NCBI GenBank assembly: GCA_026397505.1
Contig: JAPLUR010000010.1
Coordinates: forward strand, 1 to 36,580
Origin: Candidatus Zixiibacteriota bacterium
GTDB lineage: Bacteria > Zixibacteria > MSB-5A5 > GN15 > PGXB01
DNA: 36,580 bases
Direction of reading: 5' to 3'
Position 1 is the first letter of the stretch, and the number at the start of each line of letters is the position of its first letter. The position numbers were made by a program, and so were the translations under genes. This document shows, piece after piece, positions 1,969 through 33,605 of the stretch. Below the pieces are notes generated by a model, which did not search any database, was not told where the DNA came from, and was given only the letters and a program-made list of their open reading frames with translations.

Positions 1969-4098
1969 ATGGCCGCCGCGAAAGAAAAACCCAAAAGCTC
2001 CCGCAAATTAGCTCCTAATCTCCTCTTCTGGGTGCTTCTTGTGGTCATCGTCGCCGCCGGCATCTATCTCCGCCTGGCCAACCTTGATTCCGACCCGCCG
2101 ATCTATTTCGATGGTTACGGCCAGTCGCTCACCACCGACCCCTACCATTACGTGCTTCATGCCCGCAACCAGCTTCTTTTCGGCCAGAGCGACCCTTTCA
2201 ATCAGGAGCGCTGGCGGGTATTCGAGTACACGCTTGTATCGGGCTTAAGCTATGTCTTGTTTGCCCTTTTCGGTATCTCGCGTATCAACGCCAACCTGGC
2301 TGGCCTGATACCCTCGCTACTGGCCATATTTCTCTTTGCCGCGGCCATGCGGAAATTTGTCAGCCGCTGGGGCATGCTGCTCATCTTATTTCTTTTGCTG
2401 TCGAACAAGGTGCTTTATGTTTACGGACGGCTGCCATACACCGAAAACGGCCTTCTTCTGATAGCCGCCGCCCTGTTCTTTGTCTTTGCCTATTATCGCC
2501 ACCAACTCTGGGGCATTATCACCATGGGGGTGCTGGTTGCACTTGCAGGATTGAGTTGCAAAATATTCGGCTTTCTCCTGATAGTCCCGGTAATAGTCTC
2601 AATCTGGCTGGAAAGCGAACCGCGCAGGAAAAAGGATATTCTCACCGTCGTCGGCTCGACTCTGGCCGCAGTGCTTCTCTGGTTCATTCTTATCTTTGGC
2701 GGGAAATTCGGCGCTTTCACCGATTTCCTTTTCAAGCAAACAATCGGCCTTTATGGATTCCCCGAAGCTCTCAAATCGCCCCTGACCTTTATTGTCAAGC
2801 TAATCAGTTTCGGCAACGATTCACTTTTCTACTATCTCGGGCCGGCACTGAGCATCACCGGATTTCTGAGTCTTATAGTTCTGATCCGTTTCCATTCATG
2901 GAAAAGCCTCAAAGAAAATCTCCCGCTTCTATTCCTGATCGTCTGGTTTGTCGCCGGGCAGATATTCTTCATGCCGGAAAACTATCGTCCCCTTCGATAC
3001 ATTTTTATGCTCTATTTCCCCCTGGCAGGCTTGGCCGGGTATCTTTTCAGTCAGAAATTTGATCGGTTCAAGAAAATGCCGTCGCGAGAAGGGAAAATCT
3101 TCATAGCCGTGCTATTTCTTGCCTTCTGGATGACAATTGACCAGATCGCTTATAACGGCTATGCTATGTCGGGGAATCTGGCCGATAGTGAGAAAGATTC
3201 CGCCACGATTGTCCGGATAATGCTCGTGCCGGCGGCCTTGCTCACTTTCCTGGAGATCAGATATCATCTCATTCGCAGGGTGATTTCACTGCGATATGCC
3301 AAAGTAACCGCGTTCGTTTTGATTTCGGTCGTCGGACTTTGGAATTTCGGACAGGAATATAATCAATGGGAAAAGCAACGGGCTTATGCGAGCAAAGAGG
3401 CGGGCGAGGATTTGGCGCAGATACTGGGCGAAAATGCCGTTATCAGCGGCCCGTTGACCCCCACCCTGCTTCTGGAAAACAGGCTGAAGGGGCTGATCTA
3501 TGCGGCCGGAGTTTCTAATGATGACCCCGACCTTTTCCGGAAAATTCCTGTGACCCATATCGCAGTTGATGGCGGGGCATCCGGTATCTTGATCAAAGAG
3601 TTTCCCTATTTGGAGAAGGCAGAGAAGGTCACCGAGTACTGGATAAGGAATTCCGGCATTGTGCTGGTGCGAGTTACCGACCTGACCGGAAACGCCGCGG
3701 CCTCTTCCTATAAAATGACCGACTATGAAATCGGATGGCGTTTCAAAGAAGAAAAGCAGAATGACAGCGCCCTATTTTATATGGAGAGATTCGCCTCGAA
3801 GTACCCCAATAATAAGTCGGTTCTGAAGGCCATAAGCGATCTTTATGCACTGAGCGGCAAATTCGAACTAGGCCTTCAAGCACTTCAGAAGGCAGCAAAC
3901 CTCTATCCCGATGATTTCTCGGTCCAGTGGGCACTGGCAATTTACCTGCATAAGATGTATATCGGGAGCGGCGACAAGAGCTATCAAGTGCTGGCTTTTC
4001 AGGCCTATTTGAAAACTGTCGCCAAGAATCCTTACAAAGCGGATGAAATAAAATCAGTCTCGAAAAAAATCGCCGAGATGCGACTTGGCAATCAATAG
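1969..4098 (+). CDS. GT-C-type integral membrane glycosyltransferase with C-terminal TPR region
   Basis: A 709-residue polytopic membrane protein. After a short basic N-terminus (AAAKEKPKSSRK) comes a first membrane helix (about 18-35), then an acidic loop with D40, D42, D48 and D57 (DSDPPIYFDGYG...TTDPYHY). This resembles the catalytic first periplasmic loop of GT-C enzymes of the PMT/GT39 type that use lipid-linked sugars. About ten further hydrophobic segments follow up to about residue 460. A soluble domain follows, and residues about 585-690 form TPR-like helical pairs (YPNNKSVLKAISDLYALSGK, YPDDFSVQWALAIYLHK). Such proteins usually transfer sugars from polyprenyl phosphate to proteins or surface glycans. 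The acceptor is unknown and no glycan cluster adjoins it. No Shine-Dalgarno sequence precedes the ATG. Confidence 0.7.
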   Translation: MAAAKEKPKSSRKLAPNLLFWVLLVVIVAAGIYLRLANLDSDPPIYFDGYGQSLTTDPYHYVLHARNQLLFGQSDPFNQERWRVFEYTLVSGLSYVLFALFGISRINANLAGLIPSLLAIFLFAAAMRKFVSRWGMLLILFLLLSNKVLYVYGRLPYTENGLLLIAAALFFVFAYYRHQLWGIITMGVLVALAGLSCKIFGFLLIVPVIVSIWLESEPRRKKDILTVVGSTLAAVLLWFILIFGGKFGAFTDFLFKQTIGLYGFPEALKSPLTFIVKLISFGNDSLFYYLGPALSITGFLSLIVLIRFHSWKSLKENLPLLFLIVWFVAGQIFFMPENYRPLRYIFMLYFPLAGLAGYLFSQKFDRFKKMPSREGKIFIAVLFLAFWMTIDQIAYNGYAMSGNLADSEKDSATIVRIMLVPAALLTFLEIRYHLIRRVISLRYAKVTAFVLISVVGLWNFGQEYNQWEKQRAYASKEAGEDLAQILGENAVISGPLTPTLLLENRLKGLIYAAGVSNDDPDLFRKIPVTHIAVDGGASGILIKEFPYLEKAEKVTEYWIRNSGIVLVRVTDLTGNAAASSYKMTDYEIGWRFKEEKQNDSALFYMERFASKYPNNKSVLKAISDLYALSGKFELGLQALQKAANLYPDDFSVQWALAIYLHKMYIGSGDKSYQVLAFQAYLKTVAKNPYKADEIKSVSKKIAEMRLGNQ

Positions 4099-6469: not shown

Positions 6470-6670
6470 ATGCTTATGACGAAAGCTATTGAAATTGAAA
6501 AGACGCTGTGGGAACAAATCGCAGATGAAATGCTCGCCCGTTTGTCTCGCAGGGTTGAATTTGAGGGACAAAGTCTCGAAGCCATCAGACGAGCGGTCGA
6601 ATGTGGTGATCTGAAGAACCCGTCAAAGGTGGCTGAAGCGATTACACCCAAAGGATCGATTGAGCTATGA
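6470..6670 (+). CDS. Small acidic partner protein of the SMC-like ATPase
   Basis: A 66-residue helical protein starting MLMTKAIEIEKTLWEQ. GAGGAAAG ends four bases before the ATG at 6470; the in-frame ATG at 6476 is an alternative. Its stop overlaps the start of the following ATPase gene in an ATGA arrangement (6667-6670), so the two are very likely translationally coupled and made in step. No domain is recognised. The sequence is rich in Glu, Arg and Ala, with a central segment LSRRVEFEGQSLEAIRRAVE. Small coupled genes upstream of RecF/SMC-like ATPases often encode regulatory or complex subunits; that role is inferred here from position only. Confidence 0.65.
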   Translation: MLMTKAIEIEKTLWEQIADEMLARLSRRVEFEGQSLEAIRRAVECGDLKNPSKVAEAITPKGSIEL

Positions 6671-9129
6671 AGTTGATGGAACTTGAGATTTGGAATGTAA
6701 GGGGAATCCCTTACCTAAAGCTCACGCCAAACGGGAAAAACTTGCTAATATGGGGACCTAATGGGTGCGGCAAGAGTGCGGTAGTAGATGCCATCGATTT
6801 CCTGCTTACGGGACGAATATCGCGTCTGACGGGAAAGGGTACTGCAGGTTTGTCGCTAAGCAAGCATGGACCGCATGTTGATCACGAACCCGAGGACGCG
6901 AAGGTTCGTGCAGTCATAATGCTGCCTGACGGCGCGACCAATACGGAACTTGTGAGATCGATGGCGGCACCCAACCGGCTCGACTATGATCATAAATTGG
7001 AGTCATCTCTCAGTCCCATTCTCGCTACCGCTTCGCAGGGCCAACATGTTTTGACAAGGCGAGAGATACTGAAATATGTGACGGCGGAGTCTAGCAGTCG
7101 AGCACAGGAGATTCAGGATCTCCTGAACATTACTGAGATTGAGGATATCCGAAAAGCTCTTGTAAAGGTGGCTCATGAAACTGAGAAAGGGCTCCAAACA
7201 GCAAAACGTCTTGAGGATGCAGCAAAAGCGGCAGCAGGCGCAACTACCCTGTTGAAAACATACGAATCCACTGCCGTGCTTAACTTTGCGAATGATAATC
7301 GCGTGCTGCTGAAAGGTGCCACACTAAGCGATTTACACTCAACAACGTTGAAGGTGGGCATTACTGCGCCACCAGCTCCAAGCACTTCGATTTCTTACAA
7401 CGTTGCCATACTTGAGAAGGATATACAGGGCCTCAAGGATCAAATGTCCGGTGAGCGGCAAGAGGAGGCGGTAGGACTAGTACAGAATCTCACAGCAAAA
7501 GTCGCAGGGATATGTTCTGACCCAGAAGCACTACGTGCCCTCTCTTGTTTAAACTTGGTGGAACTAGGTATTGGTCTCATCGACGACTCCGACAGTTGCC
7601 CGCTGTGTGAAACTATGTGGCCGCCCGGAGAATTGCGGGCACTCCTGCAAAGGCGTCTCATTGCCGCACAGTCCACCAAGGAGCAAAAAGAGCAGATAAT
7701 GGAGCTGGCATCTAAATTGACGACACTCTTGAACACCGCGATTCTTGGAGTGGAATCAATTGTCAGGGTCGGGAAACTCTTGGCCCTGGATGTAGACGTG
7801 TCAGCGCTTGAGGTCAGATTAAGCACTCTAAAGGGACTCTCGCAAATCATTGCAGAGCCGATTGAGAAGTCTAATGAACTGGCCAATGCACCAACAATTT
7901 TGCGTGAGAATTTTCTCGCGGGGACCCTTGTAGATCGTCTCGAACATATTCGCGCGGTCGCAGAAGCGTCGTGCCCGAAACCAACACCTGAGCAGACGGC
8001 ATGGGATACCCTTACTCACTTGGAAGAGAACCTGAAGGCCTTAGAGAAGGCACAAGCAGATCTCACCAAGGCTGTACTCGCTCAGAAGAGAGCAGAATTA
8101 CTTCTCGCGGACTTCCTGTTAGCGCGTGATACAGTCTTACAAAGACTCTACGATAGCATACGCGATCGCTTTGTTGAACTTTACAGGCAACTTCACAAAA
8201 TCGATGAATCGGTTTTTGCGGCGACTATCGTGCCCGACGGCGCAGGGCTCGATTTCCAAGTCGATTTCTATGGTCGCGGGCTGCACCCCCCGCACGCACT
8301 CCACAGTGAGGGACACCAAGACAGTATGGGGCTTTGTCTCTACATGGCCCTTGCAGAGCGACTTACAAAGGGGCTAATCGACTTGACTATCTTTGACGAC
8401 GTAGTAATGTCAGTGGACGCGGATCACCGCCGCCAGCTTTGTGAGATGCTCGCTGGCGCTTTCCCCGAGCGCCAATTTCTTATTACAACACACGACAGAA
8501 CTTGGGCAAGCCAGCTTCAGTATTTGGGCGTTGTATCGAAGGCCGCGGTTTATGAGTTCACGAACTGGAACATTGCGTCAGGCCCCGCGGTGGATTTTGA
8601 TGAGGCAATTTGGGATCGCATTGATGAAGACTTGAAGGAAAATGCGGTATCGTCGGCAGCACATAAACTACGGTGGGGATCAGAACAGTTCTTCCAGCTA
8701 GTATGTGATGCACTTCGTGTGCCTGTCGTTTACACACTTGATGGAAAACACGAGCTGGGCGAATATTTGATACCGGCCATGAATTATTACAAGAGCCTTG
8801 TAGCCAAGGCACAAAAAGCAGCAAAGTCATGGGGAAATTCCGAACTTGAACAAGCCCTTGTTGAGATCGATAGTGTCAGGAGCGCGATATTTAGCCGAAC
8901 TCACGCGGAACAATGGGGGATCAATGCGAATGTGCACTACAACAATTGGGCTAACTTCACACCAAATGACTTTAGACCAATTGTAGAGGCGTTTGCAGAT
9001 CTACATGGACTGTTTAAGTGCAATAAATGTCAGTCATTACTCACACTCGCGATGACAGATATGAAACCTGTTACTGTAAAATGTCGTTGCGGTAATGTGG
9101 ATTGGAACTTACTGACAAAGAATGACTAA
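6667..9129 (+). CDS. RecF/SMC-like AAA ATPase with CxxC hook and C-terminal zinc ribbon
   Basis: An 820-residue ATPase of the RecF/SMC/Rad50-like class. It begins with a strand-rich segment leading to the Walker A motif GPNGCGKS (30-37). A long, partly coiled-coil middle contains CPLC at 311-314 at the turn, reminiscent of a Rad50-type zinc hook. The Walker B region is LTIFDDVV (D577, D578) and the H-loop TTHD carries H609. Residues about 640-780 are an extra helical domain, and the tail has two cysteine pairs (C785/C788 and C806/C808) typical of a zinc ribbon. The protein probably acts on DNA or RNA ends in the cytoplasm. Isolated ATPases of this design next to a small partner and mobile DNA are common in anti-phage systems, so defence is likely but unproved. 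It follows the 66-aa gene with a 4-base overlap. Confidence 0.8.
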   Translation: MKLMELEIWNVRGIPYLKLTPNGKNLLIWGPNGCGKSAVVDAIDFLLTGRISRLTGKGTAGLSLSKHGPHVDHEPEDAKVRAVIMLPDGATNTELVRSMAAPNRLDYDHKLESSLSPILATASQGQHVLTRREILKYVTAESSSRAQEIQDLLNITEIEDIRKALVKVAHETEKGLQTAKRLEDAAKAAAGATTLLKTYESTAVLNFANDNRVLLKGATLSDLHSTTLKVGITAPPAPSTSISYNVAILEKDIQGLKDQMSGERQEEAVGLVQNLTAKVAGICSDPEALRALSCLNLVELGIGLIDDSDSCPLCETMWPPGELRALLQRRLIAAQSTKEQKEQIMELASKLTTLLNTAILGVESIVRVGKLLALDVDVSALEVRLSTLKGLSQIIAEPIEKSNELANAPTILRENFLAGTLVDRLEHIRAVAEASCPKPTPEQTAWDTLTHLEENLKALEKAQADLTKAVLAQKRAELLLADFLLARDTVLQRLYDSIRDRFVELYRQLHKIDESVFAATIVPDGAGLDFQVDFYGRGLHPPHALHSEGHQDSMGLCLYMALAERLTKGLIDLTIFDDVVMSVDADHRRQLCEMLAGAFPERQFLITTHDRTWASQLQYLGVVSKAAVYEFTNWNIASGPAVDFDEAIWDRIDEDLKENAVSSAAHKLRWGSEQFFQLVCDALRVPVVYTLDGKHELGEYLIPAMNYYKSLVAKAQKAAKSWGNSELEQALVEIDSVRSAIFSRTHAEQWGINANVHYNNWANFTPNDFRPIVEAFADLHGLFKCNKCQSLLTLAMTDMKPVTVKCRCGNVDWNLLTKND

Positions 9130-16425: not shown

Positions 16426-19400
16426 ATGGACACTGTTTTTACAGTAACTGCGAATCACCTTTTTAACCTTGGGCCCCAAGACGCCGTTAATGTTGTGCGA
16501 CAATTGCTGTGGGCAGAGGCAACCGCAATCGGACTACCCAGATCTCAAATAAACGTTCCATTCAATATTAATGCTGCAGATGGCGGAATTGACGCCGAGG
16601 TTACTCTGCCACCAGGGCCTACATCTAAAGGCCTCCTGATCCAAGGCACCTGCAAATATCAAATCAAATCCGGTCCCATTCCTCGCCTTACTGACAAAGT
16701 GCTACGGGATCTTCTATATGAAAAACGCACAAAAGAGTTAAAAGGTGGCGTAAGGCATTGTTTTGAGCAGGGTGGCACTTTTGTCGCATTGCTGTTTGGT
16801 TGGGACAACCCCAGACATAACTTGGAGGATAAGATTTCCAAGATGACCGAAATCATCGAAAAGCAATATCCAGATTTGGGTCGAGTCAAGATCACAGTTT
16901 GGGGCCAAAACAAGATTGCCTCTCTCGTTTCGGTTTATCCATCAATTTCTTTGGCAATCACCAGTCGGGGCGGACTAATGCAAACTCACAAAAGATGGTC
17001 CGCAAACGCCAATATGTCCTATACATATTTCCCGACCTCAAACATTGACTCAATAATTAAGACAATCATCGACGAATTACTGTCCACTTCGCAGAATAAT
17101 CGAATTCATGTATTTGGCGACTCGGGTGTGGGCAAAACAAGAATAGTACTCGAAGCTACTAGAGACGAAAGAATCCAACCCCTTATTCTCTATTTCAGCA
17201 ATCCTGGCGATCTTCGGAATAGTGATTTATATCGCGAACTCGCAAAGGGCGATAACCCCTTTCGGTGCATTCTGATCGTAGATGAATGCTCACCGGAAAA
17301 AGGGTATGAATTAACCAATTTCCTTGGCCCAAATCGGCAAGGAATACGACTGATAACAATCAATGATGAGAGGGTTTCGAGAATATCAGGGACTGTAAAT
17401 ATCGGTGTTCCCCGATTACCACGTGAACAATCGATGGCCATTATTTCGTCCTATGGCATTGAGAGTGTTGATGCATCACGCTGGGCAGATTTTGTAGACG
17501 GATTTGCGCGAGATGCGCATGATGTCGGTCAACATCTTGTTGGCGAGGAACCAAATTTGCTCAAGAGTCCCGACATGATAAGGGTTTGGCAGAGTCGGAT
17601 ATCGATAAATTGTACTCCCGGGTCAAATGAGCACTCACGACGTGTTTTAGTACTACGCTGCTTGAGTCTATATAGACAATTTGGATTTGATTCAGATCAC
17701 TATAGGCGTCACAGGAATGTTATCTGCTCCAAAGTCCAAGAAATTGACTCTACTATCAGCAAACCTCAATTTGAATCAATAATCGTAAGCCTTCGTGACA
17801 TAGGCATCCTTAGAGGCGAATATGTGCTTCGTTTCACCCGCAAACTGATGCACTTAAGGATGTGGGTAGAATGGTGGGAACACTATGGGGGTACATACAA
17901 CTATAGCAGATTCGTTGAGGGCGTTCCTGACGATCTAATCGGTTGGCACAATGAAATGTTCACATACGCCGCCGAATCACCTACAGCAGAGAAGATTACT
18001 CGGGACCTACTCGGGCCTGATGGTGCTTTCCCTACTGGTGAATCGCTGAACTCAATGCTTTCGTCCCGCTTATTTTTTGCTCTGACAAATGCGGATTCAA
18101 CGGCAGCATGCGCCGCGTTGGAGAGAGCCATTGGTTCATGGAATGAAGACCAGTTGCGGCATTTTGAGGACGGAAGGCGGTACGTAGTATGGGCACTAGA
18201 GCGCATTGTTATTTGGAAAGAAACATTTGAGCGAGGTGCAAGACTCCTATTGGCCCTCGCACGAGCCGAGACAGAGGATGTGGCCAACAACGCAACTGGA
18301 GTGTTCGCGGAATTATTTGCCCCCGGTTTTGGCCGTCTTGCACCCACAGAAGTTCCGCCTATGAAGCGTATTACGCTGCTTCAGGAGTTGTTCGATTCGG
18401 GAAATCACGTTAATATTCGCATAGCTCTATTGGCCTGTGATAAGGCCCTAGGGACTCAAGGGGGTTTCAGAGAAGTTGGTCCCGAATATCAGGGCTTGAA
18501 GAAGTTGCCGGAATTATGGACGCCGAAAACCTGGGGCGAGTTGTACGAATATTATGAAACAGTTTGGAATTTGGTGTCTGCCCACTACGCCACACTGGAC
18601 ACTGAAAATGCCAAGAAAGGCATCGAAATACTTCTAAACAGGGCAAGGGGATTGGCACAGATACAGTATTTAGCGCCTATTGTTCAGAAGACCATGGAAA
18701 ACCTGGCCAGCTCCTACATGGTTGATAAGGAAGAGGTGGTCAAAGTAATTTTGCGAATTCTACACTATGATCGTAATATGGCTCCCCCCGATATAGTTGC
18801 TAAATGGGAAGAGATCCAAAAAGATATCGTTGGTTCAGACTTTAGTTCGCTCTTAAAACGATATGTTGGCATGTTCATATATGAAGACCACATTGATGAC
18901 AAGGGCAATAAAACTGATGTCGCTCGTGCCAGGATAGGCACACTTGCAGAGAAGGTAGCAGCGGAACCGGCATTGTTGAATTCAGAGCTTACCTGGTTGA
19001 TGACAGAAAAGGCGGCCCGTGGTGTTGAGTTTGGCTTTGATTTGGGCTCAATTGATACTGTGAATTCTTTTCTGCCATTACTTATTGAAAGTCAGAAGCG
19101 AGGCGATAACAGAGCATTTCTAGGGGGGTACTTCGCTGCTCTGCTTCATCGCGATGAAAGTCTTTGGGAGACAACACTCGAGGAAATTGCCAATGATGAT
19201 GAAACAGTCGGTTGGGTACCCGAACTGACTTGGCGCTCAGGTATCACTGACAGAGCAGCGAAGCGTATACTGGAACTCGCGGAGGCAGCAAAGATCCGCC
19301 CTGAAGATCTGGAGCCTTTCTCAAGAGGAGGAATTGCCAGAAAGATCGCTGAATCAATATTAATTGGGTGGCTTAGGTTCTTGCTGTCCCCCGGCAACAG

Positions 19401-20205
19401 GAAGTCGATTGCAATTGCTATGCAATTACATCATTATTACTATGCGTACCCCGAGCCAGTACGCACGATGCCACGAGATATAACTCTCGAGCTAATATTG
19501 CATGATTCACTGTTTGATTTGGACCAGAGGGATGAGTGGATTGCTCCTATCGTCGATGGCATCTGGGAGTGGACAGCACTCGCTCTGCTTTATCAGAATC
19601 CTGATATCGGTTTAGAAATCGCCAAGAAGTACATTGTTAATTTTGGATTGGAAGGGACGATAATTGGAGGATATCATTCGGGATCGCAGAGGGTTATGAA
19701 CGCAATCGCCGAGAGATTTCCTTCAGCAGTATGGCAGCTTGCCGTAAGAGAGATTGGTCCTCCTGTCACCGCAGTGGCATTCCACATCTCGCAATGGCTT
19801 AGGGGCGGCGAGTTCTCTCCGGCACCTCAGGGTGCGATGTATTTCTTTGATCGCACAGATATTTGGCGATGGGTTGACGCAAATAAAAATGAGAGAGCGC
19901 CTTATATGGCCTACATAGTCCCTCCAAGTCTTTCCAATCAAGGTGGCGTTACTAGTCTGGCTAGAGATGTCTTGGTCCGATATGGGGGTATTGAGGCTGT
20001 GCGAAATGAGTTCCATGCAAACTACGGGACCGAGGGATTTACTGGACCTGGTAGCCTACATTTTAGAAAGAAAAAGGCTGCTCTTGAACAGTTACGATCG
20101 ATTGAGCAAGATGCGAATGTGTTACAATGGTTAGATGAAGAGATTAAGTCTGTAGAGTACATCATCGAAAGAGAGAAGATCGAAGAAGAGCATAGAGGTT
20201 TCTAG
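16426..20205 (+). CDS. STAND-type NTPase with N-terminal PD-(D/E)XK nuclease region, likely anti-phage
   Basis: A 1259-residue protein in three parts. Residues 1 to about 185 look like a PD-(D/E)XK nuclease of the Mrr/Cap4 kind: E31 in the first helix, D56 in GGIDAEV, and Q79-x-K81 in YQIKSG. Residues about 200-470 are a P-loop NTPase of the STAND/AAA type, with Walker A GDSGVGKT (231-238) and Walker B ILIVDE (282-287). The remaining 780 residues are mostly helical and lack recognisable motifs, as expected for a sensor built of repeats. In known antiviral STAND (Avs) proteins the C-terminal part recognises a phage protein and NTPase assembly switches on an N-terminal effector. Architecture is the basis of the assignment here. 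The ATG lacks a clear ribosome binding site. Codon use is more A/T-ending than in the housekeeping genes, consistent with transfer. Confidence 0.8.
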   Translation: MDTVFTVTANHLFNLGPQDAVNVVRQLLWAEATAIGLPRSQINVPFNINAADGGIDAEVTLPPGPTSKGLLIQGTCKYQIKSGPIPRLTDKVLRDLLYEKRTKELKGGVRHCFEQGGTFVALLFGWDNPRHNLEDKISKMTEIIEKQYPDLGRVKITVWGQNKIASLVSVYPSISLAITSRGGLMQTHKRWSANANMSYTYFPTSNIDSIIKTIIDELLSTSQNNRIHVFGDSGVGKTRIVLEATRDERIQPLILYFSNPGDLRNSDLYRELAKGDNPFRCILIVDECSPEKGYELTNFLGPNRQGIRLITINDERVSRISGTVNIGVPRLPREQSMAIISSYGIESVDASRWADFVDGFARDAHDVGQHLVGEEPNLLKSPDMIRVWQSRISINCTPGSNEHSRRVLVLRCLSLYRQFGFDSDHYRRHRNVICSKVQEIDSTISKPQFESIIVSLRDIGILRGEYVLRFTRKLMHLRMWVEWWEHYGGTYNYSRFVEGVPDDLIGWHNEMFTYAAESPTAEKITRDLLGPDGAFPTGESLNSMLSSRLFFALTNADSTAACAALERAIGSWNEDQLRHFEDGRRYVVWALERIVIWKETFERGARLLLALARAETEDVANNATGVFAELFAPGFGRLAPTEVPPMKRITLLQELFDSGNHVNIRIALLACDKALGTQGGFREVGPEYQGLKKLPELWTPKTWGELYEYYETVWNLVSAHYATLDTENAKKGIEILLNRARGLAQIQYLAPIVQKTMENLASSYMVDKEEVVKVILRILHYDRNMAPPDIVAKWEEIQKDIVGSDFSSLLKRYVGMFIYEDHIDDKGNKTDVARARIGTLAEKVAAEPALLNSELTWLMTEKAARGVEFGFDLGSIDTVNSFLPLLIESQKRGDNRAFLGGYFAALLHRDESLWETTLEEIANDDETVGWVPELTWRSGITDRAAKRILELAEAAKIRPEDLEPFSRGGIARKIAESILIGWLRFLLSPGNRKSIAIAMQLHHYYYAYPEPVRTMPRDITLELILHDSLFDLDQRDEWIAPIVDGIWEWTALALLYQNPDIGLEIAKKYIVNFGLEGTIIGGYHSGSQRVMNAIAERFPSAVWQLAVREIGPPVTAVAFHISQWLRGGEFSPAPQGAMYFFDRTDIWRWVDANKNERAPYMAYIVPPSLSNQGGVTSLARDVLVRYGGIEAVRNEFHANYGTEGFTGPGSLHFRKKKAALEQLRSIEQDANVLQWLDEEIKSVEYIIEREKIEEEHRGF

Positions 20206-20287
20206 TTTACTTATTTTCCACCATTCGCTGTTCTTCCTTACGATCGCACGCCGTTAACCTTCTAAGAATCACTAGTAGCAGAAACAG

Positions 20288-20317
20288 GTCAGGATCTTTT
20301 TAGATCCTGACTTTTAT
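20288..20317 (+). terminator. Strong Rho-independent terminator after the STAND gene
   Basis: A perfect 10-bp stem (GTCAGGATCT 20288-20297 with AGATCCTGAC 20302-20311), TTTT loop, then TTTTAT. It would also function partly on the other strand, toward the minus-strand gene ending at 20352. Confidence 0.85.
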
Positions 20318-20351: not shown

Positions 20352-20804
20352 TTATATCTCATTCCGGCGGGATGTCCAATATGAATCGCTGAGGCCGCGG
20401 ACAAGCATAAAAACTGCCGCGGCAAGCAGGATAGGCGAGCTCCAGAATCCGGGCAAGATTCTCCACAGGAAAGCCGACCCAATCATGTGACCGCACGCAT
20501 TCAATATCATAAGTATACCCAGAACAGTCGTGAATCGCTGTACCAGCTTTCCGCCTCGGGCAACTACAGGTGTGAAGGCAAAGCCGGCAACAACTAAAAA
20601 GATCAGAGTTGCAAGCCAGAGTCGAAATGTGAATGTCGGCATTGGAAAGAATCCGAGACGCTGCCGGAGGCCGGTCACGACCTGATTGTAGAATGGCAGA
20701 AAATCTGTCATGGCTTCGTCAACCACGTGCAAAACTATGGCGGACATCATTAGCACCCATGCCATTACTTTCTTATTTTTGAACAATCCTCGCTTTGTAC
20801 TCAT
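20352..20804 (-). CDS. Membrane protein with HXXEE-like motif
   Basis: About 150 residues from the ATG at 20804, which has CGGAG seven bases upstream on the minus strand. A longer frame reaching 20900 runs into a dispersed repeat and is not used. Four hydrophobic segments are visible (about 13-27, 55-75, 90-110 and 118-136). HVVDE in the first helix and NACGH in the third recall the HXXEE membrane family (His and acidic residues facing each other within the membrane), but the match is short. The function of that family is unknown. The gene is separated from ispG by a structured repeat, so it may be transcribed alone. Confidence 0.6.
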   Translation of the reverse strand: MSTKRGLFKNKKVMAWVLMMSAIVLHVVDEAMTDFLPFYNQVVTGLRQRLGFFPMPTFTFRLWLATLIFLVVAGFAFTPVVARGGKLVQRFTTVLGILMILNACGHMIGSAFLWRILPGFWSSPILLAAAVFMLVRGLSDSYWTSRRNEI

Positions 20805-29790: not shown

Positions 29791-29819
29791 TTGACGGCGA
29801 GGATATATTTATCTATAAT
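29791..29819 (+). promoter_or_regulatory. Main promoter of the sensor kinase operon
   Basis: TTGACG (29791-29796), 17 bases, TATAAT (29814-29819): the best sigma70-type match in the window. The leader to the ATG at 29901 is about 75 bases. Confidence 0.65.
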
Positions 29820-29900: not shown

Positions 29901-32252
29901 ATGCACAAATCAAACATACCAAAGCTCACCGATGTTGTGACCGAGGATACCCTCAAGATATTCCTCCAAGGTTTTTTTCTCAATTCTGGACTAGCAGTCG
30001 GGATATATGTTGAGCCCGGTAGGCCGCCGATTTTGAATGAATCTGATTTGAATCCTATTTGTTTGCAGCACTATAACCAGGTTGGACGCGGGGGATGCTC
30101 GGAAAGAAATATAGCACTGGCAGCGCGGGTACTCATCGATACGGACAAAAAAGCATTAAAGGAATTGGAGAGTTGTCCTTTCGGTCTTCAGCATGTTGTT
30201 GAGCCAATTTGGTGTGCAGATAAGAAGCGAATTGTGGCTATTCTTTGCTTGGGCGGAGTACTGACAAATAAAGAAGAAGCAAAATCATTCTTGGAGAAAT
30301 TCACCATAGACCTCTATATGGACCAGATTAGCTTTAAGGATAGGGGAAAAAGACTAAAGGAATATGCCACAGACCTTCAGAATTATTATAATGCTCATTT
30401 GAAGATGATTGGCTACACAGATGACCGCCAAGCCCCCCCACCATATAATGCTGCACGTAGCGATATCCCGGAATTCCTTGATATAATCAACAATGACTTA
30501 GACGAGACTTTCGAAAGAATATTGTCATTTCTGAATACGTGGACTAATTCCCGTCTCTCAGCTCTATGCATACTTGACCCGCAAGCACCTTATAATGACC
30601 CAACAAATGACTATCTTGTTGTCCGGCATGTTGTGGGTCTAACCGAATTAGAATCTGAAAGAAAAAAGAATCTGAAAGGCCCCGAATTTCTGAAGGTTTC
30701 CGATAGCTTTGTAGGAAGGGCAATAATCAGTAAGAAAATCGATTATGTTGAGGATCTGAAACCTGAGGATTTCAAATGGTTTGAGGCGGTTAGAGAGTTG
30801 GATACAAGAAAAGCACTTGTAATACCACTCATTTTGCCTGATAATCGTTTAGTCTTAGGCGTATTAATCTGCTTCCCGGGTCGTGCGATATGGAGATCAA
30901 GATTACCAATGTTCGTATCATTCGCTCGTCGGGTCGCGGTTTCAATATATTCAGCAACGCGGAATGAATTATACAAGCGGAGTCGTATTTTCTCGAAAAG
31001 GCTTCTGGAAGTATCTTCTATGACGGGGATCGAATTTTATAGTGATATGGCCGAATTAATCCGCACGACACTTGATGCTGCCGCAGCATCAATATTCATT
31101 ATTGATCGCACTTCAAGATATTTAAGACTTGTAGGTACAACCGATCAAACGCAAAATGCCAAATATTTAGTTGGCAGTAGAATCTATAGAATTGGTGAGG
31201 GCATAACGGGCTTTATAGCAGCGGAATTAGCCAGAAGACCTTATGGCGAAATAGTATATAACCTTTATGACGATAAAAGGCGATCACCGAAATTTGAGGA
31301 ATACGTTCCAGAAACGCGTAACAACAGCCATTCTATGATGGCGACACAGGTGATTTCGCCCGGCGGCGAGGTTGTAGGTGTAATACGATGTGTCGACGTT
31401 GTACACAAATCAAATGCCGTTTTCAACTGTTTTAATCACTTCTATTTAGAAGGACTGCAGTTTTGGGCTGGTATTTTTGGCATTATTTACACTATGAAGG
31501 AAGGGGTTAGATTGAACCATGAATTTATGCTCACTTTTGTTCATGAATTTGGTTCGAGTCTTATGGGCCTGAGGAATAATTTAGAACTTGTGAAGAGAAA
31601 CATCGAAACTGGCAATTCAATTGTAGCCCTGCGTAAACTCGATGATGCTGTGATGCTTGCGGTTGATATTATGACACCCCCTCTTCAGGATGTAGAATTA
31701 ACCAGTCTTATTATGACAAAAGGTGAATGGAGTATAGAACAGCCGCGAGAAGAGGAGCTCTGGCTGGAGAAGGATATCCTAATGCCTATGAAGAACGCCT
31801 TTCAGGATGAAGCAAGACGCGAAAGGCATATTGATATTCACTATGAACCACTCCCTGTAAGTATCTTGGTAGACAGGAAACAGATAATACAGGTTTTCAG
31901 CAATCTCATACGCAATGCAATTAAGTACTCATTTGATCCTAAGAATAAAGCAGTAACACCCAATATGCTCGCGGATATAAAAATAAGACCATATTTCGAT
32001 GATCGAGGAGCACTTCATATCGATTTCGAGAACCAGGGTATAGGTATAGATGAGGACGAGAAGAAAGTCGTGTTCGAGCTTCACAGAAAAGGCAGAAACG
32101 CCGGTATACAGAGCGCCGGTGGACTTGGGCTGGGTTTATTCATATGCAAGACCATTCTGAGATTTCATGGCGGTGATGTTTTTGTGAAATCTGGCCATAA
32201 TCCAACGATCATAACAATGAGGCTACCTTCATTTAGAGTACTGCAACAATAG
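29901..32252 (+). CDS. Soluble PocR-GAF-GAF sensor histidine kinase
   Basis: A 783-residue kinase without membrane helices. Residues about 10-145 fit a PocR-type sensory domain, with cysteines C54, C66, C92 and C105 in the expected rhythm and the closing CLGGVLT; such domains are proposed to bind small molecules or metals. Two GAF-like domains follow (about 190-350 and 365-530). The phosphoacceptor region has HEFGSSLMGLRNNLE with H548. The ATPase part shows the N-box NLIRNAIKYS (N668, N672), DFENQGIGI and GGLGLGLFICK. It probably phosphorylates the receiver protein encoded 15 bases downstream. The start is placed at the only suitable ATG; no strong ribosome binding site is seen. Confidence 0.88.
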   Translation: MHKSNIPKLTDVVTEDTLKIFLQGFFLNSGLAVGIYVEPGRPPILNESDLNPICLQHYNQVGRGGCSERNIALAARVLIDTDKKALKELESCPFGLQHVVEPIWCADKKRIVAILCLGGVLTNKEEAKSFLEKFTIDLYMDQISFKDRGKRLKEYATDLQNYYNAHLKMIGYTDDRQAPPPYNAARSDIPEFLDIINNDLDETFERILSFLNTWTNSRLSALCILDPQAPYNDPTNDYLVVRHVVGLTELESERKKNLKGPEFLKVSDSFVGRAIISKKIDYVEDLKPEDFKWFEAVRELDTRKALVIPLILPDNRLVLGVLICFPGRAIWRSRLPMFVSFARRVAVSIYSATRNELYKRSRIFSKRLLEVSSMTGIEFYSDMAELIRTTLDAAAASIFIIDRTSRYLRLVGTTDQTQNAKYLVGSRIYRIGEGITGFIAAELARRPYGEIVYNLYDDKRRSPKFEEYVPETRNNSHSMMATQVISPGGEVVGVIRCVDVVHKSNAVFNCFNHFYLEGLQFWAGIFGIIYTMKEGVRLNHEFMLTFVHEFGSSLMGLRNNLELVKRNIETGNSIVALRKLDDAVMLAVDIMTPPLQDVELTSLIMTKGEWSIEQPREEELWLEKDILMPMKNAFQDEARRERHIDIHYEPLPVSILVDRKQIIQVFSNLIRNAIKYSFDPKNKAVTPNMLADIKIRPYFDDRGALHIDFENQGIGIDEDEKKVVFELHRKGRNAGIQSAGGLGLGLFICKTILRFHGGDVFVKSGHNPTIITMRLPSFRVLQQ

Positions 32253-32267
32253 TGAAAGGGTTGATGT

Positions 32268-32732
32268 ATGAATATTCTTTTTATAGATGATGATGATATA
32301 AGGACTGCGCCGTTGCGAGAAGGACTGCCATCGATGGGTGATTATTCGGTCACTCACATACGAAATCCAATAGAATCTATTGAAATTTTTGGTACTGATC
32401 CGAAGCAATTTCAATTGATCGTTGTTGATATAATGATGCCTCACTACGCTGCACCTGAATATAGGGATTTCTCGATACCCAAATATTTTCAGGACAACAA
32501 CGATGGCATTTATACTGGGCTCAAGGTACTGATGCAACTTGAGGCCATTATGATACAGTGGAGCATTTCAATACCAATAATTGTCCTGACTCACATACCG
32601 GACGTCAATAAATATATCACGGAACTTGTTGCATCCGGCGCTCTTTTGAAGCGGCCATCTGCTGTCTTGATAAAACCCGTCTTCATAAAAGATTTCGTAG
32701 ATGTTATCGAGAGGCTTGGCCAGCATGATTAA
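32268..32732 (+). CDS. Single-domain response regulator (receiver only)
   Basis: A 154-residue receiver domain without an output domain. The acidic triad is in FIDDDD (8-10), phosphoacceptor D54 in VVDIMMP, T108 in IVLTH and K136 in LIKP. About 20 residues between D54 and the following helix (HYAAPEYRDFSIPKYFQDNN) exceed the usual loop. Receiver-only proteins pass phosphate on or act by binding a partner; here the partners may be the two small membrane proteins encoded next. It follows the kinase by 15 bases with GAAAGGG upstream, and its stop overlaps the next start. Confidence 0.88.
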   Translation: MNILFIDDDDIRTAPLREGLPSMGDYSVTHIRNPIESIEIFGTDPKQFQLIVVDIMMPHYAAPEYRDFSIPKYFQDNNDGIYTGLKVLMQLEAIMIQWSISIPIIVLTHIPDVNKYITELVASGALLKRPSAVLIKPVFIKDFVDVIERLGQHD

Positions 32733-33225
32733 TGCAATAAGAGGTATCGTTAATAGATTGATTGGCAAAAACCGATTGGGGCATTATCGATATAAGGCAA
32801 TAAGAGATGTCATAATATGGTTCTTTTTCGGTGTTGTTTTTGGATTACTTCAACTCTGGATATCCATCCTAATACAATGGCTTGAGAAACCAAACGTTGA
32901 CATGTATGTTTATCTCCAGTCCGGCGTCATATTATTTTTTTGCTCAGGCATTGTAACCAGTAGTGCTAGCGAAATACTATTTGAAGATGATATTGACAAG
33001 AAAAGAAGGCGGAACATTGTATTTCACATTCTATTGCCAATGATATTTGTAGTATTTATTACTACGGTGTACTGCAGAATTATTGCGGGGCACATTGATC
33101 TAGTGAAAAATAACTGGTGTCAATTGGGGTCTTTTGCATATGCTTTGGCTTATTCCATCATAACAAGATTTCAATTGAACTATGTGAGATTCCGACGAAT
33201 TGAATATGGTGGTGCATCATGCTAA
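32725..33225 (+). CDS. Small four-helix membrane protein of the signalling operon
   Basis: About 166 residues from the ATG at 32725, which overlaps the receiver gene's stop by eight bases; an in-frame ATG at 32701 would extend the overlap. After a basic start (NRLIGKNRLGHYRYK) there are four hydrophobic segments: IIWFFFGVVFGLLQLWISIL, YLQSGVILFFCSGIV, ILLPMIFVVFITTVYC and FAYALAYSII. A charged cytoplasmic loop FEDDIDKKRRRN separates the second and third. I do not recognise the family. Tight coupling to the kinase and receiver genes suggests it is an output or sensor partner. Confidence 0.7.
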   Translation: MINAIRGIVNRLIGKNRLGHYRYKAIRDVIIWFFFGVVFGLLQLWISILIQWLEKPNVDMYVYLQSGVILFFCSGIVTSSASEILFEDDIDKKRRRNIVFHILLPMIFVVFITTVYCRIIAGHIDLVKNNWCQLGSFAYALAYSIITRFQLNYVRFRRIEYGGASC

Positions 33226-33605
33226 TATATATTACTAGCTTGCTCCTACTAATTGGCATCATACTATATGCTACGAGCACTTTCGCTAGATGGCAAGGAA
33301 TACGTCGCAATCCCCTATTGGCGATAAGGGATCCCATTAGATCAGTCGAATTAGAATATATCCGGATATTTTCAGACAGAAATAAGATTAACAAATACGA
33401 AGTAAGACGTAGTAAGGCATTTTATCAACTTGGCGATGACGAAGAGAAAATTCGTTCCATATATTATATTGCTTTTCTTGGAACCCTAAGCGATGTCGAG
33501 TTTTTAAATCGCGCAAGTCATGATATGGGGCAGAGTGAAGCGGTACGGCACGCAGCGACAAAAGCGATGGATCTTCTCTATGCACGGTACAAGCCGGCGC
33601 AATAG
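33219..33605 (+). CDS. Membrane-anchored protein with a helical cytoplasmic domain
   Basis: A 128-residue protein starting MLIYITSLLLLIGIILYATS, one membrane helix, followed by a charged helical domain (RSKAFYQLGDDEEKIRSIYY, SEAVRHAATKAMDLLYARYK) that could be a short HEAT-like pair. Its ATG overlaps the preceding gene's stop by seven bases, so it is the last of four coupled genes. I do not recognise the family. No terminator is obvious in the 144-base convergent gap that follows, which shows nothing else. Confidence 0.65.
   Translation: MLIYITSLLLLIGIILYATSTFARWQGIRRNPLLAIRDPIRSVELEYIRIFSDRNKINKYEVRRSKAFYQLGDDEEKIRSIYYIAFLGTLSDVEFLNRASHDMGQSEAVRHAATKAMDLLYARYKPAQ

Follow-up and report, generated by a model that had tools for sequence, protein, structure and literature searches.

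In an excerpt of PMC12802240, EpsW, a single-domain response regulator of Myxococcus xanthus, is described as stimulating the membrane enzyme EpsZ, apparently by direct contact. According to the same excerpt, EpsZ is a phosphoglycosyl transferase, and the Dif chemosensory system acts upstream to drive EpsW. We analyzed an operon that may work along similar lines. It occupies positions 29901 to 33605 of a stretch of 36,580 nucleotides from a Candidatus Zixiibacteriota bacterium (contig JAPLUR010000010.1), hereafter the window, and encodes a sensor histidine kinase, a receiver-only response regulator and two small proteins with transmembrane (TM) segments, ORF3 and ORF4. By analogy with EpsW and EpsZ, this receiver would act post-translationally on a membrane protein. 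In contrast to the enzyme EpsZ, the candidate partner, encoded in the same operon, is a small protein that joins a TM segment to a helical domain, and we infer the contact between the two.

Two other groups of described proteins are related to parts of the operon. Like CheY and other stand-alone receivers, its receiver has the receiver fold, intact D/D/T/K residues and no output domain. Unlike them, it contains a conserved stretch, about 28 residues long, that is partly missing from the solved receivers it matched, and its operon supplies a dedicated kinase and a membrane gene. The kinase resembles the PocR/GAF histidine kinases (PF10114) in its three aligned cysteines, PocR-like profile, GAF domains and lack of a convincing TM segment. 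It differs from them in scoring under the Pfam cut-off and in its partners, a receiver-only protein and a domain anchored in the membrane. Among the titles and abstracts listed in literature searches, none describes this operon. The operon is rare, and it departs from the usual form of the well-known two-component systems.

A three-gene unit shared by three genomes

The operon consists of four open reading frames (ORFs), whose order, positions and overlaps are those given in a preliminary description of the window:

29901..32252, + strand: soluble sensor histidine kinase, 783 residues (GAF and HATPase_c above Pfam cut-offs)
32268..32732, + strand: receiver-only response regulator, 154 residues (receiver fold by AlphaFold 2 (AF2) and Foldseek)
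32725..33225, + strand: ORF3, membrane protein of 166 residues with three to four TM segments (hydropathy)
33219..33605, + strand: ORF4, 128 residues, one N-terminal TM helix and a cytosolic helical domain (AF2 model)

The receiver gene and ORF3 overlap by 8 bases (ATGATTAA), taking the ORF3 start at 32725, and ORF3 and ORF4 overlap by 7 bases (ATGCTAA). An alternative, longer ORF3 starting at 32701 would overlap the receiver gene by 32 bases. ORFs of at least 166 codons arose in none of 1000 random sequences (first-order Markov, same 940-bp composition), and ORFs of at least 128 codons in 8 of them. A codon model trained with the kinase sequence ranked the coding frame first of six in each of the receiver, ORF3 and ORF4, a partly trivial result, since stop codons interrupt the other frames.

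We searched 132 genomes of one phylum, the window's own included. The kinase was found in three (E ≤ 1e-14, with at most seven candidates scored per genome). The receiver subfamily (E ≤ 1e-10) and the C-terminal domain of ORF4 (E ≤ 0.01) were found in the same three. The chance of one three-genome set equalling another is 2.7e-6, a figure that overstates the case because the genes are neighbors in two of the three genomes. In one relative, G119, the order is kinase, receiver, ORF4-type gene. The last two share 20-23 bases, according to which ATG is taken as the start, and the ORF4-type gene is preceded by GAGGAG. The gene for the ORF4 domain is joined to the receiver gene directly by this overlap in G119, and by way of ORF3 through two overlaps in the window. 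In the other relative, G031, the kinase and receiver genes are followed by a second receiver gene cut off by the contig end, and a different contig carries the ORF4-type gene, from its base 2 onward. These split contigs fit a broken operon, in which adjacency is likely. As judged from the sequences, the conserved unit is three genes: the kinase, the receiver and the ORF4-type protein.

ORF3 contains three hydrophobic segments, with a possible weak fourth by eye. None of the other 131 genomes of the phylum gave a match to it (E ≤ 0.001), its own genome alone being positive. It is also unmatched in plasmid and phage records and has no counterpart in the G119 operon. Among the genomes searched, ORF3 is a local addition private to the window genome. 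We also considered whether it supplies a half that the membrane protein of G119 lacks, an idea that was dropped when no similarity was found.

The preliminary description had proposed that the signal ends at the nearby membrane proteins, both of unknown family, and had suggested a survey of related operons for the same four genes. In the phylum surveyed, the order kinase-receiver-ORF4 recurs in G119, and ORF3 in no relative. The membrane gene is therefore absent from relatives for ORF3 and present for ORF4, a comparison that covers two relatives only. The proposal is supported for ORF4, given its co-occurrence in 3 of 132 genomes and its overlap with the receiver gene in G119, and is not supported for ORF3. 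No homologue of ORF3 was found, and ORF4 has homologues in G119 and G031.

The same observations bear on a quite improbable explanation, in which the membrane genes are incidental passengers and the receiver is a phosphorelay shuttle or a phosphate sink for another response regulator. Archaeal receiver-only proteins often lack a conserved neighborhood, according to an excerpt of PMC5847659; ORF3 is not conserved, and two receivers stand in tandem in G031. If the genes were passengers, however, the ORF4 domain would not be expected in exactly the three genomes that have both the kinase and the receiver, nor would the ORF4-type gene be expected to overlap the receiver gene in G119.

The three kinase-bearing genomes fall into three families, and in the family of the window genome the 14 others that were searched gave no kinase match at E ≤ 1e-15. 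The distribution of the unit is therefore patchy, and the system has probably moved horizontally. Viral contigs contain no relative of the receiver, the kinase or ORF4. In plasmids, the window receiver and the sensor part of the G119 kinase are unmatched. Plasmid matches to the kinase (25 records) cover at most 32% of its length, with 26-37% identity in the best rows, and those to the G119 receiver (4 records) show 26-27% identity; both are generic. A contig scan gave two generic kinase matches only, L002 (25% identity) and L003 (30%). No such operon surrounds a Paraburkholderia kinase match in one annotated record.

The kinase and the receiver

The kinase is composed of a PocR-like region, two GAF domains and a catalytic region:

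29934..30374, + strand: PocR-like N-terminal sensory region with three conserved cysteines, C54, C66 and C92 (profile comparison, relatives)
30492..30950, + strand: GAF domain 1, residues 198-350 (Pfam GAF_2 at 198-324, GAF at 199-349)
31032..31490, + strand: GAF domain 2, residues ~378-530 (second GAF stretch, bounds from the relatives' matches)
31542..31547, + strand: H548-E549, candidate phospho-accepting histidine of the H-box (invariant in 3/3 kinases)
31872..32228, + strand: HATPase_c catalytic domain, residues 658-776 (Pfam E 5.7e-17)

It is 45% and 48% identical to its orthologues in G119 and G031, respectively, over nearly the full length. The HATPase_c domain scores 62.6 bits against a Pfam cut-off of 26.4. 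Conserved nucleotide boxes, which we take to be N, G1 (NxGxG in this kinase) and G2, are kept in all three kinases. HisKA gave a weak match in one relative (G119, E 0.18). The most hydrophobic 19-residue stretch, residues 306-324, has a mean hydropathy of 1.91. It is not read as a TM segment because it is inside GAF domain 1. The kinase is thus predicted to be soluble, with no convincing TM segment of its own, in agreement with the preliminary description.

The kinase had also been called PocR-type, a name that needs qualification. The window protein alone has no PocR (PF10114) hit in Pfam at E ≤ 1, and a PocR family search of its own genome gave nothing at E ≤ 0.01. The PocR hidden Markov model does match the orthologues, with 21.0 bits in G119 (E 3.1e-4) and 18.8 bits in G031 (E 1.4e-3), below the Pfam cut-off of 23.9. 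Comparison of the kinase N-terminus with a PocR profile gave an hhalign probability of 74% (E 2.8e-5), from small alignments of three and five sequences. C54, C66 and C92 align with three invariant cysteines of the five PocR domains, which come from two related genomes. On this sequence evidence, the first 160 residues resemble a PocR sensory domain, and 'PocR-like' is a fair label. Anantharaman and Aravind reportedly predicted in 2005 that PocR domains sense simple hydrocarbon derivatives. No domain of the kinase is better conserved than GAF domain 2, with pairwise identities of 56-64% (catalytic domain, 50-56%), which may reflect a shared ligand or a structural role.

The receiver contains the acidic pair D7/D8, the phospho-accepting D54, T108 and K136, and these active-site residues are kept in all three full-length members of the alignment. 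By itself, the window receiver falls under the Pfam PF00072 cut-off (23.3 vs 30.2 bits), and both full-length relatives exceed it. Its AF2 model has a predicted local distance difference test (pLDDT) score of 85.6 and matches AdeR in Foldseek (E 1.6e-6). A domain search found no output domain, DNA-binding or other, and the model of the 154-residue protein ends at the last receiver helix. The preliminary description was correct on this point. Four matches in G000, G031 and G119 reach E ≤ 2e-39, and the next, in the same three genomes, have E of at least 5e-4. By these scores the receivers form a sharply separate subfamily. In G031, two receivers of this subfamily stand in tandem at L005:3874-4308 and L005:4370-4602. 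The first is 49% identical to the window receiver over the full length and the second 55% over the 77 residues on the contig, values that are not like-for-like.

Directly after the phospho-accepting strand, the receiver contains a well-conserved stretch:

32442..32525, + strand: conserved receiver stretch, residues 59-86 (28 residues)

All three pairwise comparisons of full-length members give 61% identity here, compared to 44-50% in the preceding part and 38-42% in the following part. The D54 strand alone is more conserved (67-78%). Matches to solved receivers end near profile position 61 and restart near 83-100. Because they break here, the stretch is taken to contain an insertion. The AF2 model places a short extra helix at residues 63-68, in a less confident part of the model (mean pLDDT of 62-67 for residues 61-80).

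ORF4 and the proposed output

Both ORF3 and ORF4 had been described as small membrane proteins. For ORF3 this agrees with its three to four TM segments. ORF4 is only partly a membrane protein, because its single TM helix is followed by a soluble domain:

33378..33590, + strand: ORF4 C-terminal helical, possibly HEAT-like domain, residues 54-124 (four helices in the model)

In the AF2 model of ORF4, ten-residue blocks between 61 and 120 have mean pLDDT values of 94-96, and residues 25-37 are below 50. Residues 58-126 fit HEAT-type solenoids and alphaRep proteins in VIA-align. The best match is epoxyqueuosine reductase (Z 10.6, 68 residues, 1.5 Å). Foldseek gives nothing for the domain with E below 0.4, and neither ORF4 nor its relatives have a Pfam HEAT hit. 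'HEAT-like' is thus a possible reading of a small helical model, and ORF4 may belong to a helical-repeat family absent from fold lists. Weak matches to PADLOC, PHROGs and solved structures were set aside as helical, ATPase or receiver generalities.

The G119 homologue, a protein of 275 residues, shares 41% identity with ORF4 over 88 residues at its C-terminus, and the G031 homologue is 40% identical over 78 residues. In both proteins, a variable stretch separates the N-terminal hydrophobic segment from a second TM segment, and then come a long stretch that looks coiled-coil-like by eye and the conserved C-terminal domain. Similarity between the two begins at the second TM segment and extends to the C-terminal domain, and the stretch between the TM segments does not align. 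This points to a cytosolic role of the conserved part.

The domain organization of these homologues could also suit an input function. The ORF4-type protein would then anchor or tune the soluble kinase at the membrane via its C-terminal domain, and the target of the receiver would be encoded elsewhere. The G119 and G031 proteins are receptor-like, with two hydrophobic segments, a loop between them and the cytosolic coiled-coil-like stretch, and the kinase has no convincing TM segment of its own. However, the loop is not conserved and is absent from the window ORF4, the kinase already has three candidate sensor domains, and the membrane gene of G119 overlaps the receiver gene. We consider an input function unlikely.

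ORF4 is favored as the output because its domain, among the 132 genomes searched, is confined to the three with the kinase and the receiver. It is likely the receiver's partner. A complete His-Asp pair without a DNA-binding output, next to a conserved membrane-anchored domain, is most simply read as a receiver docking on that domain. We therefore favor, with moderate confidence, a non-transcriptional two-component system in which the receiver docks on a membrane-anchored adaptor and the output is a membrane complex, not a promoter.

In such a system, the kinase would read a cytosolic signal, probably a small ligand held by its PocR-like and GAF domains, and phosphorylate its own histidine. The phosphate would move on to the receiver, at D54. 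Once phosphorylated, the receiver would dock on the helical cytosolic domain of the ORF4-type protein, through the stretch near the phosphorylation site, the alpha4-beta5-alpha5 face, or both. Docking would alter the state of the membrane part, which in G119 and G031 may be the protein that has two hydrophobic segments and in the window the ORF3-ORF4 pair.

Several observations weigh against a docking system of this kind. The unit is found in three genomes only. Two of these, G031 and G119, are draft assemblies in which contamination reaches 8% and 9%, and the contigs in question might come from other organisms. The ORF4-type gene of G031 is on a separate contig, and its adjacency to the receiver gene, as considered above, is likely but falls short of proof. 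ORF3 is without any relative. The Z of 10.6 for ORF4 is lower than the ~13 advised for helical models, and common helical arrangements reach it. ORF4 lacks both the second TM segment and the long stretch between TM segment and domain of its homologues, and may therefore work differently from them. The low G+C content of the operon (0.408, compared to 0.487 in the remaining window) is not unique, as other stretches of the window reach 0.41-0.43.

A more specific version of the docking system is that the operon represents a distinct class of non-transcriptional two-component systems. It would be characterized by a dedicated output segment borne on the receiver beside its phosphorylation site, phospho-dependent docking on a membrane-anchored HEAT-like adaptor, and a membrane part swapped between lineages, in a two-TM form or a split ORF3-ORF4 form. 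We regard this version as tentative and somewhat doubtful.

Genomic context and implications

A promoter-like site precedes the operon:

29791..29819, + strand: TTGACG-17-TATAAT, 11/12 consensus matches (by consensus match alone)

It is located about 80 bases upstream of the kinase ATG. In a scan of the window for sigma70-like sites none scored higher, and it was equalled by one minus-strand site at 20378 with a 16-base spacer. The earlier claim that the operon has the best such promoter in the window thus holds as a tie. The operon is flanked by lon and a PHO4/DUF47 pair, all three on the minus strand. The interval between lon and PHO4 was considered as a conserved site for the operon and dropped, because it is not conserved. 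No operon gene, PHO4 or DUF47 gene was found near 28 lon-type loci in 26 other genomes, taken with flanks of up to 1.5 kb.

Patchy distribution, in 3 of 132 genomes, and base composition could also indicate a module for defence or for the response to envelope damage, with ORF3 and ORF4 together as a membrane effector set off by the activated receiver. The membrane proteins are small, and the low G+C content of the operon includes the lowest 1-kb value of the window (0.382, at 32501-33500). However, the genes flanking the operon in the window are housekeeping genes by Pfam, and those in G031 and G119 look non-defence by eye, with no family search made. In a PADLOC scan of 6 proteins, hits to the kinase (best E 5.4e-6) are confined to the ATPase region and are generic, and the weak match of the G119 membrane protein to ZorA (E 0.011) falls outside the conserved C-terminal domain. 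Viral contigs hold no relatives, and plasmid matches are to generic kinases or receivers only. A defence role is very unlikely.

Other features of the window were recorded. Two large ORFs, of 709 residues (1969-4098) and 1259 residues (16426-20205), have no Pfam match at E ≤ 1e-5. The latter is followed by a strong terminator-like hairpin at 20286-20313 (12 pairs, 4-base loop) and then a T-rich tail. An 820-residue protein (6667-9129) has SMC/RecN-type ATPase matches.

Receiver-only regulators are common, but many have no known target. The ORF4 domain directly names a candidate target, and it is small and soluble enough for binding tests. If receiver docking on the membrane-anchored ORF4-type protein is true, it would extend the modes by which two-component systems act without binding DNA, with an output route directed at the membrane and an output segment carried by the receiver itself.

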